Assembly: GCA_025517425.1 (NCBI GenBank)
Contig: JAOPJY010000001.1
Location: 1,288,217-1,352,216, forward strand
DNA length: 64,000 nucleotides
Reading direction: 5' to 3'
Source of the DNA: Halobacteria archaeon AArc-dxtr1
Lineage (GTDB): Archaea > Halobacteriota > Halobacteria > Halobacteriales > Natrialbaceae
In this document: positions 51,438 through 58,426 of the stretch, in pieces
Layout: each line of letters opens with the position of its first letter
Numbering within the stretch: position 1 is the first letter of the stretch
The notes under the pieces: model-generated
What the model was told of the DNA's origin: nothing
The model's database searches: none
Seen by the model: the letters and a program-made list of their open reading frames with translations, nothing else
Position numbers and translations under genes: made by a program

Positions 51438-54400
51438 CTACAGTGCGGGAACCACTGACCCGGGAAGCGACGCGGCTACGTCGCCGGTATCGTCGCTGCC
51501 GGTCAGATCGTCGTCAGCGCCGTCGGAGTTTTCGCCGTCACCGTTTTCGACAGCGTCGCCATCGCCATCGGTCGCCACATCGGTGTCACCGCCATTAGCC
51601 GCCGCATCGGTTTCTCCGCCGTTAGTCGCCGCATCGGTGTCTCCGCCGTCGGTGGCTGCACCGTCGTCAGCGGTTCCCTCACCGGCACTTTCGTCGTCGG
51701 TGGCTCCATCGTCGACAGTTCCGTCATCGGTCTCTGTGGCCCCGTTCGCGTCGACTCCGTTCTCGTCAGTTTCGGTGGGCTCGTCTTCGCCGGTAGTCTC
51801 GGCTTCGCCATCCGCCTCATCTACCCCGTTCGCCTCGTCGGGATCGTCCTCGAGTGGCTCCTCGATCAGGACCGTCGCCTGATCCTCGTCCGTGGCGCTC
51901 GTGACGGAAGCGGTGTACTCACCCGGTTCCAGTTGCGTGGTGTCGAGGGCGAGTGAGACGGTCTGCTGCTCGCCCTCGTCGAGGGTGAGGTCGGCGTCGG
52001 CGAGCTGCTCACCGACTGAAAGCGAGAGCGTCTCGGTCGCCTCCTCGCCGCCGACGTTCTCGACGTCGACGTCGAGAATCACCTCCTCACCTTGCTCGGC
52101 AGGGTCAATCGGGTCGACGATATCGATGGCGAACTCGCCGGGCTCAGTTGGTGCGATCTCGCCGGCCGGCGGCGTCTGCGCCGACGCCGTCTCGGTGTGG
52201 TTGAACGCGCTCATGTCGACGACCCACTCAAGCTGTTCGTCGTCAGACTCTGGGGTCCACTCGACGGTGATCTCGTCAGCGCCGGAATCTAACTGCTGGG
52301 GCGGCTGGTCGTCAGTCGCGCCGTCGAACTCCCCGCCGGGGACGGCGGCGTCGTTTGGATTCTCGTAACTGAACGTGACTGCGATGGCGTCCCCGGTCTC
52401 CTGGGAGTTCTCGTAGGAGAGCGTCGGCAGCTCGGGCCGAATCTCGTCGAAGCACGCCGCAGTCTCCGGGTTCGAGTGGTCGATACCGGCGGTGAGGTAG
52501 GTCTCCTCCTCGGTCGTCAGCCCCGAGAGAACGGTGCCGAACGTGCCGTAGTCGGCGATCTCGACCAGAATCTCGTCTTCACCCTCGTCGATGGTTACGG
52601 ACGAGGTCTCGCCGACCTCGAAGACGACGGTTCCGGTAAACGGCGCGTCGACGTCGTCGCCGAATACGACCCCGTCCTCGATCAGAGTGTTACCGTAGCC
52701 GGCAGTGTCGTAAAAGCCCGTGCTGGCGAATACGGGATCACCGTCTTCGAACGTTCCGGAGACCGTCGCGCGATCGCAGCTCTGGAACTCGACCGACAGC
52801 TCCTCGGGCGGCGCGTCGTACGCACCGGCTGGCTCCGTCTCAACGCGAACCGGCTCGTCGTAGGCGAAGTCTTCCATTGGGATCTCCCAGGCCAACACTT
52901 CGTCGTCGGAGTCGGGAGTCCACGCGACGGTGAACTCGTCTTCGCCAGGGGCGAGTTCCGCGGGCGGTTCGTCGGCGGTCGTTCCCTCGACGAACTCGCC
53001 GCCCGTGATCGGTGCGTCGTTGGGGTTCTCGTAGCCGAACGTCACGTCGAAGGCAGTTGTACCTGGGTCGTCGCCCTCATCCCCGTCTGCGTCGGCCGCC
53101 GTGCCGTTTTCGGCGGGCTGGACGTCCTCGACGGTGAGCGTCGGCTCCTCGGGCTGGATCTCGGCGCCGCAGTCGAGGTCATCCGGCGGCGAGGCGAGCG
53201 CCGATTCGGGCTCGTCAGCGGGACTGACCCACGGAACGATAAACGAGCCGAAGTTGCCCTCATCGGGGACTTCGATGACGACCGTCTCCTCGTCGACTTG
53301 CTCGACGTCTTCCTCCTCGCCGACTTCCATCACGACCGTCCCGGTGAAGGGTGCCTCGACCTCCTCGCCGGCGGTCACGCCGGTGTAGAACGCGTCGCCG
53401 GGTCCGATGGTGTCGTACCAGATCGTTCGCGGGTAGAGGTCGTCACCCTCCTCGAGCGTCCCCGAAATTTCGACGCGCTCGCAGCTCGTGTACTCGACCG
53501 ACAGCTCCTCGGGTGGCGCCTCCTCGACGGTGTACTCGATCGTCTCGTTCGCGAGGACGTCCCCCTCGTCGGCGACGTCTCCGTCTCCCGCGGCAACGAC
53601 GGACACGTCGACAGTGGTGTTGTCCTCGATCGGCGGATCGAGCGCGAGTGACTCGTTCTCGACCGGCTCGCCGGCGTCGACGGCGTCGCTCTCGACCGTC
53701 TCGTCGTCGTACTCGGCTGTGAGCCGGTACTCCACGGAGGCGTTCGCCTCGTCGACGACGAGTTCGGTTCCGTCACCGTCCTGATCCGAAACGGAGAGGG
53801 TTGCCTCGGGATCGTCGATCTCCTCGTCGACCGTGTAGAACGCTCCGTCGAGGATCGGAGCGCCGCCGGGTGTGACGTACGGATCGTCCTCGGCGCCGTC
53901 GGTCTCGGCGTACTGGAACGTCTCGTCGTCGGTGGTGTCGTGGTGGACGACCGCGACGATCGGACCGCTCGCCTCGATGGGCTCGTCGAGTTCGATCTCC
54001 ACGTTCTCGTGGTCGCCGGCAGAGAGGTACCCCGAGGCACCGATCACTGCCTCGGGATCGGCGTCGGCGGCGACGCCGTCGTAGATCGCGACGAAGCCGC
54101 CCTCAGAGAGGGAGACGGAATCGACAGTGACTGTCGTACCGTTGCCGGTCTGGTCGGCGAGCGAGATCGAGGCTTCGCCCTCGCGTTCGTCTATTTGTTC
54201 GACCTTCTGGACGATCTCGATCTCGATCTGCTGGACGATTACGGTCGGATCGTCGACGCCCTCTGCGATCGCGTAGTCGGCGGTGTCGGCCGCGGTGTCG
54301 AAGGTTAGCGCCTGGAGCTGGGTGACGCTTATCTGCTGGTACTGGATCGCCCGGGGGAGTTCCTTGCTCGCACCGCTGGCGATGACCTGGATCTGCTCGA

Positions 54401-55874
54401 CCGAGACCTCCTGGTGCTGGACGAGCACGCCGCCGGCGGCGCCCTCGGCGATGTACTGCACCTGCGTGGCGCTTACGGTCTGGCGCTGGAGGACGGCCCC
54501 CTCGCCGGCGCCGAACGAGGCCGCCTGAATCTGCTCGATTTCGACGATCTGATACTGGATCGCCGAGTCGACCGCGCCCGTGGCCGCGCCGGTCGCGGCC
54601 TTCTGGATCTGGGTCACCTCAACCTCCTGATATTGGACGATGACGCCCTGTGCACCGCCGTCGGCCGCAGCCTGGATCTGCTCGACCGTCGCCTCCTGGC
54701 TCTGGACGATCGCGCCGGTTGCGGCGCCGAAGGACGCCTCCTGGATCTGCGTGATCGAGATCCGCTGGACCTGCTCGACGTCGCCAGTCTGGAGCTGTTT
54801 CAGCGGCCCCTTGCCGGCGCCGCGGGCCGCGAACTGCGTCTGTTCGGCGCTTACGTCCTGCTTCTGGACGAGCGCGCCTTTGGCCGCACCGGTCGCGGCC
54901 TTCTGGACCTGTTTGATCGTGACCTGCTGGCGCTGCTCGACCGTGATCCGCTGATCCTGCTCGATCGCCTGCTCTGTCGTCCCGGCGAGCGCGCCCGCGG
55001 CAGCGCCCGCGGCGGCGTGCTGAGCGTGCTCGATCGTGACCTGCTGGCGTTGCTCTGCCGTGATCTTCTGGTACTGCTCGAGCGTACCGTACGCCGAGCC
55101 CTGCGCCGCTTCCTGAATCTTCGGTTTCTTCTCGACGTCCTTCGCCCCTGCCTCGCTCGCGGCGCCGGCCGCCGCGCCGAGCGTGGCGATCTGGATCTGC
55201 TCGACGGTGACGTGCTGGTACTGCGCGAGGCCGCCGTGGGCCGCCCCCCAGGTCGCACTTTGCATCTGGCTCGCGTTGACCGTCTGGTGCTGGGCCAGCG
55301 CGCCGTCGGTCGCGCCGCCGACGGCTGCCTCGACGTGCTCGGTTTCGATCTCCTGAACCTGCTCGACGTCGACCTCCTGGGCCTGCAGGAGCGAGCCGTG
55401 GACCGCACCAGCCGTCGCCGCCTGCACCTGCTCGACGTCGGCATCCTGGTGCTGGCTGACGGACTGCGTTGCGGCGTCAACAGCTGCAACACGCTGTTCC
55501 TGGGTTACCTCGACACCCTGGGACTGGACCAGTTCGATCCCCTCGTCGACTCCCGATTCGACCGCGTCCGCGGCGTCGTCGGAGAGGTCGTCGGTCTCAC
55601 CGGTTGCACCCATTTCGATCGGGTCGTCGTCACCGGCATCGAAGACCGGTTGCCCCGTCTCGTTGGCGGCGAGCAACGTGGCGCCGTCAGCGGCCGGGGT
55701 GGTGCCAGCAGCCTCAGGGTTCGACGCGGCACCGTTTGGCGACTCCGCTTCGGCTCCGTTGTCACCGACGCCCGAACCCATCCCGCCGATTCCGCCGAGG
55801 AAGGGAAGCGCGAAGACGCTCGTCACCATCAAGACGGCAACGATGACCGTTCCGCCCGCGAGTGTGCGATTCAT
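51438..55874 (-). CDS. Giant secreted Gln-rich repeat protein
   Basis: The 1,478-residue protein has a signal-like helix (MNRTLAGGTVIVAVLMVTSV). Residue numbers here count from a GTG six codons upstream. From about 120 to 560 it consists of Gln-rich units with a repeating VEQ(I/V)Q...GAAxGAL.QYQ pattern, with 13 GxxxG steps at 162, 193, 216, 239, 265, 296, 335, 358, 389, 412, 435, 461 and 484. A DUF7282-like domain follows (about 573-690), then two similar 220-residue domains (about 796-1027 and 1030-1245), each with two cysteines, a CARDB-like domain (1251-1346) and an Asp/Gly-rich tail. No C-terminal sorting signal is seen. It is likely a surface or matrix protein; function unknown. Confidence 0.85.
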   Translation of the reverse strand: MNRTLAGGTVIVAVLMVTSVFALPFLGGIGGMGSGVGDNGAEAESPNGAASNPEAAGTTPAADGATLLAANETGQPVFDAGDDDPIEMGATGETDDLSDDAADAVESGVDEGIELVQSQGVEVTQEQRVAAVDAATQSVSQHQDADVEQVQAATAGAVHGSLLQAQEVDVEQVQEIETEHVEAAVGGATDGALAQHQTVNASQMQSATWGAAHGGLAQYQHVTVEQIQIATLGAAAGAASEAGAKDVEKKPKIQEAAQGSAYGTLEQYQKITAEQRQQVTIEHAQHAAAGAAAGALAGTTEQAIEQDQRITVEQRQQVTIKQVQKAATGAAKGALVQKQDVSAEQTQFAARGAGKGPLKQLQTGDVEQVQRISITQIQEASFGAATGAIVQSQEATVEQIQAAADGGAQGVIVQYQEVEVTQIQKAATGAATGAVDSAIQYQIVEIEQIQAASFGAGEGAVLQRQTVSATQVQYIAEGAAGGVLVQHQEVSVEQIQVIASGASKELPRAIQYQQISVTQLQALTFDTAADTADYAIAEGVDDPTVIVQQIEIEIVQKVEQIDEREGEASISLADQTGNGTTVTVDSVSLSEGGFVAIYDGVAADADPEAVIGASGYLSAGDHENVEIELDEPIEASGPIVAVVHHDTTDDETFQYAETDGAEDDPYVTPGGAPILDGAFYTVDEEIDDPEATLSVSDQDGDGTELVVDEANASVEYRLTAEYDDETVESDAVDAGEPVENESLALDPPIEDNTTVDVSVVAAGDGDVADEGDVLANETIEYTVEEAPPEELSVEYTSCERVEISGTLEEGDDLYPRTIWYDTIGPGDAFYTGVTAGEEVEAPFTGTVVMEVGEEEDVEQVDEETVVIEVPDEGNFGSFIVPWVSPADEPESALASPPDDLDCGAEIQPEEPTLTVEDVQPAENGTAADADGDEGDDPGTTAFDVTFGYENPNDAPITGGEFVEGTTADEPPAELAPGEDEFTVAWTPDSDDEVLAWEIPMEDFAYDEPVRVETEPAGAYDAPPEELSVEFQSCDRATVSGTFEDGDPVFASTGFYDTAGYGNTLIEDGVVFGDDVDAPFTGTVVFEVGETSSVTIDEGEDEILVEIADYGTFGTVLSGLTTEEETYLTAGIDHSNPETAACFDEIRPELPTLSYENSQETGDAIAVTFSYENPNDAAVPGGEFDGATDDQPPQQLDSGADEITVEWTPESDDEQLEWVVDMSAFNHTETASAQTPPAGEIAPTEPGEFAIDIVDPIDPAEQGEEVILDVDVENVGGEEATETLSLSVGEQLADADLTLDEGEQQTVSLALDTTQLEPGEYTASVTSATDEDQATVLIEEPLEDDPDEANGVDEADGEAETTGEDEPTETDENGVDANGATETDDGTVDDGATDDESAGEGTADDGAATDGGDTDAATNGGETDAAANGGDTDVATDGDGDAVENGDGENSDGADDDLTGSDDTGDVAASLPGSVVPAL
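52155..53510 (-). repeat. Two tandem 220-residue Cys-pair domains in the giant protein
   Basis: The segment encodes residues about 795-1246 (numbered from the upstream GTG). Both domains open EELSVE(Y/F)xSC, share APFTGTVV(M/F)EVGE, NPNDA and EGEFAxx-like GGEF, and hold a Cys early (804, 1039) and late (908, 1147). Internal duplication is clear by eye but sequence identity is only moderate. Confidence 0.7.
54390..55500 (-). repeat. Gln-rich 23-residue repeat array in the giant protein
   Basis: Encodes residues about 131-500 (numbered from the upstream GTG). Distances between successive GxxxG motifs are 31, 23, 23, 26, 31, 39, 23, 31, 23, 23, 26 and 23 residues. The longer ones are 23 plus 8 or 16, matching one or two extra 8-residue strands such as QRQQVTIE; the 26s add three residues. 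This fits a solenoid of variable lap length. Confidence 0.8.
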
Positions 55875-56134
55875 CGCCACCACCGACGGCACGCGAATCG
55901 CACCGATCGGGTCTCGACCGTCGTCGGCCGTCCCTCGGTCGGTCGGTCAACCGAAGCTGTCGACTGACCGCCACCCATTGTCGATCCGTCGACCGTGTCT
56001 AGAGACCACTCGGCTCCGTGAGCCACCGAAACACCGCCGTCTGTCACCCGCTTGCTGCCGTCTGTCGCCAGTTTACCGCCGTCTGTCGCCCGTTCCCACC
56101 CGACGGGGTCCGCGCGTGTAGTATCGAGACCCAT
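55871..56134 (-). CDS. Candidate leaderless upstream ORF, translation-coupled to the giant gene
   Basis: The 87-codon frame (MGLDTTRADPVGWERATDGG...) ends at a TGA that overlaps the giant gene's ATG (ATGA at 55871-55874). The minus strand reads CGCTTATG at 56160-56167, about 26-33 bases before this ATG, a plausible TATA box. The middle is a 7-residue repeat (xTDGxxx, three times) encoded by a 21-base tandem repeat. It is rich in Asp, Gly, Arg and Thr, with no hydrophobic segment. It may be a real small protein or a translated leader. Confidence 0.4.
   Translation of the reverse strand: MGLDTTRADPVGWERATDGGKLATDGSKRVTDGGVSVAHGAEWSLDTVDGSTMGGGQSTASVDRPTEGRPTTVETRSVRFACRRWWR
56034..56096. repeat. 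21-base tandem repeat, three copies
   Basis: The units, starting at 56034, 56055 and 56076, share GCCGTCTGTC(A/G)CC with differing tails. They code for ATDGGKL-, ATDGSKR- and VTDGGVS-like segments of the candidate upstream ORF. Confidence 0.8.
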
Positions 56135-56428: not shown

Positions 56429-57010
56429 ATGGAGACGAAAGACGAGACGGTCGATCCGGTCGACGGCGAGGTCGTCAGCTCCCTGGCCCGAGCATCGCTG
56501 CTCGCGGCGTTGATGGGGGCGACCGCCGGTGTCGTGATACCGATTTCGGCGGTTCCTGGGACGCTACAGATGCTCGTCGTCTTCCTCGCGGGGCTCTTTC
56601 TGGGCCCCGTCTGGGGGGCGATCTCGATGGTGTTGTACCTGGCCGCCGGGGCCGTCGGCGCACCGGTATTCGCTGGCTGGAGTGCAGGGCTGGGGAGCCT
56701 CGTCGGCCCGCACGGGGGGTTCCTGTGGGCGTTTCCCGTCGGCGCGTTCGTGGTCGGTGCTATCGTCCACCGAGGGCGAACGGTGCGCGATCCCGCGACA
56801 GTGTCGCGGCTCGTGATCGTCGCGGCGCTGCTCGTCGCGACGGTCGTCGTCTACGTCGGCGGCTTCGCGTGGTACGCCTGGGTGACCGAGACGTCGGTCG
56901 TCGAGGCGTTTACCATCGTCGCGCTGCCGCTACTTCCGGGTGACGTCCTCAAGATGCTGGCCGCACTGGCGATCGTCGAGAGCGGGCGTATCGACCCAAC
57001 GCGGGGGTGA
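56429..57010 (+). CDS. bioY: Biotin-binding S component BioY
   Basis: The 193-residue integral membrane protein has about six helices with the BioY features GTLQMLVVFLAGLFLGPVWG (about positions 44-63), LAAGAVGAPVFAGWSAG, LVGPHGGFLWAFPVGAFV and FTIVALPLLPGDVLKML. BioY binds biotin outside the cell and passes it to an energy-coupling module. The bioM and bioN genes follow directly, so this is a complete BioMNY unit. Leaderless expression and BirA-type control are suggested upstream. Confidence 0.9.
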   Translation: METKDETVDPVDGEVVSSLARASLLAALMGATAGVVIPISAVPGTLQMLVVFLAGLFLGPVWGAISMVLYLAAGAVGAPVFAGWSAGLGSLVGPHGGFLWAFPVGAFVVGAIVHRGRTVRDPATVSRLVIVAALLVATVVVYVGGFAWYAWVTETSVVEAFTIVALPLLPGDVLKMLAALAIVESGRIDPTRG

Positions 57011-57014
57011 GAGG

Positions 57015-57719
57015 ATGATCGAATTCCAGGACGTGAGCTACGAGTTCGACGAGGAGCCCGCGCTCGAAGCTGTCTCGCTGTCAATCGACGACGGCGAGGT
57101 CGTCGTACTGGCCGGCGCTAACGGCAGCGGGAAGACGACGCTCCTTCGCCACTGCAACGGCCTCCTGACACCGGATAACGGAGAGGTGCGCGTCGACGGC
57201 GTCGACGTTTCGGAGAACCCCGTCGCCGCGCGCACGCAGATCGGGATGGTCTTCCAACACCCCCAGGATCAGTTCGTTGCCGCGACCGTCGGCCACGACG
57301 TCGCATTTGGGCCCGAAAATCTCGGCCTCGAGCGTGCAGAGATCGATCGTCGGGTCGAGGCGGCGCTCGCAGCCGTCAATCTATCGGGACGCGAAGACGA
57401 TCGCATTGAGTCCCTCTCGGGCGGCGAGCAGTCCCGAGTCGCTATCGCCGGTGCGCTGGCGATGGAGCCCGCCCACCTGTTGCTCGACGAGCCGTTTACC
57501 GGGCTCGACGAACCAGCCCGACAGTCGGTTCACGATCGGCTGGCAGCGCTCTCGGCGGGCGGGACGGGACTGGTGATCGCGACGCACGACCTCCGTGACG
57601 TACTGGCGATGGCCGACCGGGTCGTCGGCATGGACGACGGTCGGGTAGTCGTCGACGAACCGGCCAGCCGCGCTCGCGAGGCGCTCGGGTCACTCCCAGT
57701 TCGTGTCCCGCCACCGTGA
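57015..57719 (+). CDS. bioM: Biotin ECF transporter ATPase BioM
   Basis: The 234-residue ABC ATPase has Walker A GANGSGKTT, the Q-loop QHPQDQFVAATVGHDVAFGP (positions about 77-96, typical of ECF ATPases), signature LSGGEQSRVAIA, Walker B HLLLDEPFTGLD and H-loop ATHDL. It energises the biotin transporter with BioN and BioY. ATG 57015 lies 4 bases after the bioY stop and a GAGAGG element precedes it; the open frame from 56940 is not used. Stop overlaps the next start. Confidence 0.93.
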   Translation: MIEFQDVSYEFDEEPALEAVSLSIDDGEVVVLAGANGSGKTTLLRHCNGLLTPDNGEVRVDGVDVSENPVAARTQIGMVFQHPQDQFVAATVGHDVAFGPENLGLERAEIDRRVEAALAAVNLSGREDDRIESLSGGEQSRVAIAGALAMEPAHLLLDEPFTGLDEPARQSVHDRLAALSAGGTGLVIATHDLRDVLAMADRVVGMDDGRVVVDEPASRAREALGSLPVRVPPP

Positions 57720-58426
57720 TGCTTCGCTACGAGCCTGGCGAGACGCTGGCCCACCGGCTCGATCCGCGATCGAAGCTGGCGCTCCAAATTGGCTTTACCG
57801 CGACCGCACTGGCACATACGAGCCCGCCCGCCCTGGTCGCGCTGACCGCGTTCACGCTGCTCGTGGTGACCGTCGCTGGCGTCCCCCTGCTCCGCTCGCT
57901 GTACGCGTTTCGGGTCGCGATCGTGATCCTCGCGGCTGCGCCAGTGATCTCGGTGGTGACGCTGGGTTCGCCGTGGATCGAGCCCGAAGCCGCGGTCGAT
58001 CCCGCCCTGGCGAGCTACCGCGTCGTGTTGATCCTGCTGTTCAGCGCGGCGTACGTCCGGACGACGCCCGTTCGAGACTCGCGGGCGGCGATTCAGCTGA
58101 CAGTACCCGGAAAGCCCGGACGTGTTCTCGGAATGGGAATCGCGCTCGTCTTCCGCTTTCTGCCGGTCCTCCAGGCGGACGTGAGTCGGATCCGAGAAGC
58201 GATGGCGGTCCGTCTGGGCTCCGAACGGGGGTTCGTCGACCGAGCAAGCCACATCGGGATCCTCGCGCTCGCAAAAACGTTCGACCGCGCGGATCGGCTC
58301 TCGATGGCGCTGCAGGCGCGGTGTTTCGCGTGGAATCCAACGCTCCCGCGACTTGCGTTCTCGCGACGTGACGTGCCGGTGCTAGCGATGGCGGCAGTAC
58401 TGGCAGCGACGGCGGTCGTCTGGTAG
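57719..58426 (+). CDS. bioN: Biotin ECF transporter transmembrane subunit BioN (EcfT)
   Basis: The 235-residue protein begins MLRYEPGETLAHRLDPRSKLALQ and has about five hydrophobic helices, then the EcfT coupling region AMAVRLGSERG and SMALQARCF, which contact the ATPase. Its ATG overlaps the bioM stop by one base (TGATG), and an alternative GTG lies one codon upstream. It completes the bioYMN operon. Confidence 0.9.
   Translation: MLRYEPGETLAHRLDPRSKLALQIGFTATALAHTSPPALVALTAFTLLVVTVAGVPLLRSLYAFRVAIVILAAAPVISVVTLGSPWIEPEAAVDPALASYRVVLILLFSAAYVRTTPVRDSRAAIQLTVPGKPGRVLGMGIALVFRFLPVLQADVSRIREAMAVRLGSERGFVDRASHIGILALAKTFDRADRLSMALQARCFAWNPTLPRLAFSRRDVPVLAMAAVLAATAVVW

Follow-up and report, generated by a model that had tools for sequence, protein, structure and literature searches.

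A haloarchaeal repeat domain with a 23-residue period whose length changes mostly in steps of eight or three residues

The stretch of DNA analyzed here (hereafter, the window) comprises 64,000 nucleotides from Halobacteria archaeon AArc-dxtr1. It carries at 51441-55874, on the minus strand, the gene for a 1478-residue repeat protein that begins with an ATG at 55874 (an alternative GTG lies at 55892), ends with a stop codon at 51438-51440 and has homologues in a family of 87 distinct proteins. Residues are counted below from the ATG, and all features of the protein lie on the minus strand. From its N-terminus the protein consists of a hydrophobic segment, a linker, the repeats, a DUF7282 domain, a duplicated module, a CARDB-like domain and an acidic tail. 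A plus-strand open reading frame of 517 codons (54414-55967) overlapping the repeat gene was treated as a probable shadow of this GC-rich gene.

Residues 1-26 (55797-55874) form a putative export signal or membrane anchor, read by eye; the hydrophobic character of the signal helix proposed in an earlier, sequence-only reading of this DNA stands. Unlike this plain hydrophobic start, two distant homologues, L050 (2715-5318, minus strand) and L054 (2562-4229, plus strand), begin with what looks by eye like a Tat-type twin-arginine sequence. The repeat domain (P0002) spans residues 105-560 (54195-55562) and is followed by the DUF7282 domain at residues 568-679 (53838-54173), which the same reading had anticipated and Pfam confirmed (E 9.9e-36, or 1e-35 when rounded; 122.8 bits versus a curated cut-off of 27). 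Two copies of a C-terminal module come next, at approximately residues 794-1017 (52824-53495) and 1021-1238 (52161-52814), with 43% identity between them. The CARDB-like domain at residues 1241-1340 (51855-52154) was also anticipated; no CARDB match above the Pfam cut-off was obtained in the window protein, and the assignment comes from alignment to the orthologue L071, which has such a match and whose segment is 35% identical to that of the window protein. The protein closes with an acidic, low-complexity tail (residues 1341-1478; 51441-51854).

The copies found in Natrialbaceae share a position beside genes that resemble, by eye, bioY, bioM and bioN. In the window these biotin-type genes lie at 56429-58426, divergent from the repeat gene, and the adjacency is kept across Natrialbaceae; it was judged to be an inherited position, and a biotin role based on this neighborhood was set aside. 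The C-terminal half differs among relatives, where DUF7282, CARDB, TSP3, CAP and beta-helix domains, all of an extracellular type, are found. For example, in L045 (2143-9018, plus strand) the repeat domain is fused to a CAP domain and nine TSP3 repeats, and L046 and L100 carry a beta-helix. One genome, G197, has two separate copies (L048 and L049), which differ by eye: one resembles DUF7282 over part of its length, and the tail of the other is long, threonine-rich and TSP3-like.

Repeat-domain homologues were detected in 111 of the 394 sampled genomes of the class and, within a set of 61 related genomes, in 29, with 47 named loci in genera that include Natrialba, Natrinema, Natronorubrum, Haladaptatus, Halosimplex, Haloarcula and Halorientalis. 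Within one such family of haloarchaea the domain occurs in most of the genera sampled, and it recurs in several other families; in a phylum-wide sample of 295 genomes, matches were confined to the family and order of the window. The host genome has a single copy, and searches of viral contigs and of phage and plasmid collections returned no relatives. The domain is under purifying selection, with dN/dS values of 0.03-0.26 in ten pairs. Pfam searches of 43 members at E 0.01 matched no repeat family (LRR, curlin, TPR, HEAT and others), and a PDB sequence search with the repeat domain was likewise empty. The domain is thus a real, conserved family unannotated in Pfam and PDB, as the sequence-only reading had supposed of the architecture.

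The repeats are most easily followed through 13 units that each carry a GxxxG motif, the array occupying residues 156-482 (54429-55409) with motifs at residues 156-478, equivalent to 162-484 from the GTG. Counted directly on the translation, and ignoring a second, overlapping GxxxG at residue 294, the twelve gaps are 31, 23, 23, 26, 31, 39, 23, 31, 23, 23, 26 and 23, exactly the values that had been reported. Autocorrelation of residue identity peaks at offsets of 23 (0.25), 54 (0.21), 31 (0.19) and 8 (0.17) over a typical level of 0.08-0.10. Underlying these values are QxQ motifs placed alternately 8 and 15 residues apart, which sum to 23: among 31 QxQ-to-QxQ gaps in the window protein, 17 equal 8 and eight equal 15, while in 5000 shuffled sequences of identical composition the two spacings averaged 0.21 and 0.19 occurrences, respectively, and neither exceeded three.

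This spacing is regular in homologues, and irregular spacing had been named as a ground for abandoning the solenoid that the sequence-only reading proposed. Of the 455 gaps counted in 38 Natrialbaceae orthologues with conserved synteny, 438 (~96%) are 23, 31, 26 or 39, and for ten of the twelve window gaps the length is the same in 34 or more of the 35 aligned Natrialbaceae sequences (window included). Another 27 proteins, distant or paralogous, contribute 307 gaps, of which 212 measure 23 and 44 measure 26; the next most frequent lengths are 22 and 25.

The longer gaps had been explained as 23 plus 8 or 16 residues, the additions being strands of the form VEQ(I/V)Q. The eight-residue length was borne out for the 31-residue gaps; the strict form was not, as the added segments EIETEHVE, QVTIEHAQ and VQRISITQ follow roughly xVxVEQxQ. 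The first of these (residues 175-182; 55329-55352) is an insertion in the window protein, because gap 1, which is 31 here, is 23 in 33 of 34 other aligned Natrialbaceae sequences. The gaps containing QVTIEHAQ (residues 278-285; 55020-55043) and VQRISITQ (approximately residues 369-376; 54747-54770) are both 31 in all 35 aligned sequences, and the homologues L052 and L053 lack both segments. The sixth gap is not cleanly quantized: its approximate +16 segment (around residues 306-321; 54912-54959) differs in length among orthologues, the gap being 39 in 24 of 35 aligned sequences and elsewhere 34, 36, 38, 41, 43, 47 or 55. In the distant homologue L042, a gap of 55 (23 plus four times 8) is filled by 8-mers in succession. 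Altogether, the eight-residue step is a true indel with one irregular site, gap 6, and the array changes length mostly by set steps of eight and three residues.

Aligning 997 units by their Ala/Gly half, without using glutamine as an anchor, gave the consensus Q0 x Q2 x V/A4 S/T/D/N5 V/I6 E/T7 Q8 I/V9 Q10 x A12 A13 x G15 A16 A17 x G19 A20 L/V/I21 x. The two halves of this unit have different signatures. Positions 0-10 alternate between conserved and variable (beta power 0.66, p 0.005), while positions 7, 11, 14, 18 and 22 form a variable stripe that corresponds to one side of a helix. Position 5 resembles a helix N-cap, being S, T, D or N in 79% of units. Additionally, position 7 alternates between Glu and other residues in the window protein, and positions 11 and 20 alternate over two units in distant proteins. 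In proteins from outside Natrialbaceae (L042, L099, L100, L101 and L103), Asn is common at position 5 and Ser or Thr at position 7; an N-x-S/T sequon occurs in 66 of 391 distinct 23-residue units, and the sequons of the non-Natrialbaceae repeat domains are possibly glycosylated.

The alternation at positions 0-10 is an argument for a beta- or alpha/beta-solenoid, in which QxQxxVxVxQxQ would form a strand with inward-stacked glutamines and each eight-residue insertion would add a strand to a lap. Eight being even, such insertions preserve the alternation, and the chained 8-mers of L042 also speak for this reading. We regard this solenoid as rather doubtful given the helix-like character of positions 7-22, and units that have degenerated by losing all their conserved residues jointly can mimic strand couplings.

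Structure prediction, which had been proposed together with the homologue search as the check on the solenoid, gave no confident fold in two AlphaFold2 runs. For the whole domain with 43 alignment rows, mean pLDDT was 46.9 and fell to ~20 in the middle, and approximately one helix per unit was modeled over the first 110 residues, mostly at pLDDT 69-88. An isolated 175-residue middle fragment, run with a stacked alignment of 98 rows, was predicted as weak beta with strands at the QxQ segment, as the solenoid would have it, but at a mean pLDDT of 36.3 with all residues below 50. A Foldseek search of the PDB with the low-confidence whole-domain model gave a best E of 0.39, which is not meaningful; the top rows were the de novo designed helical repeats DHR79, DHR18 and DHR8, which like natural alpha-solenoids are built of tandem helices. 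At E 0.39 or worse and with a mostly low-confidence model, no relationship to these designs is shown, and the QxQ motifs and eight-residue insertions distinguish the haloarchaeal family from them.

Because AlphaFold2 gave no confident fold, covariation was used. Inside a unit, coupling is strongest at +4 for positions 11-22 and at even steps for positions 0-8. The helix regions of neighboring units couple in an antiparallel sense, in a band at i+j of ~33-34 that none of 500 scan-corrected permutations reached, its center having first been noticed in the same data before that test; other versions of the test gave p 0.01-0.10, and canonical units only gave p 0.05-0.10. Kinship among the sequences inflates these couplings. 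Parallel coupling of neighboring helix regions was not seen (p 0.87-0.97), the helices of next-neighbor units couple parallel (p 0.000-0.017), and the extended regions of neighboring units lean weakly toward parallel (p 0.07-0.20). Indirectly, a parallel solenoid with one unit per lap is somewhat disfavored because adjacent helices couple antiparallel and next neighbors parallel, and with it the variable-lap beta solenoid of the sequence-only reading lost some ground.

We therefore hypothesize, from the sequences, that each unit has a helix at approximately positions 7-22, with adjacent helices antiparallel and a two-helix period of 46 residues. The 23-residue unit would then consist of an extended segment of ~7-8 residues and an alpha-helix of ~16 residues, the helices packing through their A/G-rich GxxxG faces, and the structural repeat would be the two-helix hairpin. 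The two-unit alternation of residues at positions 7, 11 and 20 accords with such a hairpin. The +8 segments would lengthen the extended connections between helices. Against this arrangement stand the two-residue alternation at positions 0-10, which is typical of a strand, and the failure of AlphaFold2 in the middle of the domain, where the fragment was predicted as weak beta. That helices and Gln-rich extended joins stack in alternating direction as a new repeat fold, altered by whole eight-residue segments without being broken, is a tentative proposal that we would not yet favor over its denial.

Each of the first five units is conserved in its own right, since units 1, 3 and 5 carry His, His and Tyr or Phe, respectively, at position 18 in most homologues, distant ones included. 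In the window protein these residues are His159 (55398-55400; at least 90% conserved in alignment A2), His213 (55236-55238; invariant in the 43-row alignment) and Tyr262 (55089-55091; Tyr or Phe in most homologues), and they may form a site. This H-x-H-x-Y pattern on alternate units, with no variation at His213 and almost none at His159 in A2, would suit N-terminal repeats that act as a receptor for a ligand or metal in place of a spacer; we consider this unlikely, as the proximity of the three residues in space is conjectural, Pfam and PDB sequence searches found no related receptor, and the remainder of the array would be left to explain.

Two well-known repeat types invite comparison. Leucine-rich repeats and other alpha/beta solenoids have a period in the low twenties, an extended segment and a helix per unit, and conserved amide residues. 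The haloarchaeal repeat shares the period and the amides, and its units would likewise hold an extended segment and a helix; it differs in having no Pfam match and in the antiparallel coupling of neighboring helices, where parallel would be expected of that likeness. Curli repeats are ~22-23 residues long, contain Gln and Gly and belong to secreted proteins. The haloarchaeal unit is similar in length and in Gln/Gly content, but has no Pfam curlin match, and one half of it bears a helix signature. A Gln-rich, self-assembling matrix fiber comparable to functional amyloid would accord with the hydrophobic N-terminus, which suggests export, with the Gln/Gly/Ala-rich units of 23-residue period and with the weakly predicted beta of the middle fragment; yet the units retain individual identity across genera and covary as helices, and neither curlin nor another Pfam repeat was matched in 43 members, leaving such a fiber improbable.

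DUF7282 and CARDB proteins have these C-terminal domains in common with the window protein, and the repeat domain lies outside their Pfam models. Since literature searches on DUF7282, Gln-rich proteins of Natrialba and haloarchaea, and related terms found nothing on the repeat family, its function is read here from domain architecture. On that footing the protein may be an exported, membrane-tethered and adhesin-like scaffold of the haloarchaeal cell surface, a reading we consider plausible at somewhat under even chances. Less well supported within this reading is an adhesin-like or matrix scaffold whose array would form a long rod, tethered to the membrane by the N-terminal helix and holding the C-terminal domains off the cell. 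Should the set-length insertions mean that the fold can absorb whole additional segments, the family would illustrate in nature how a repeat protein changes its length modularly, and its repeat domain would be a ready target for structure determination.
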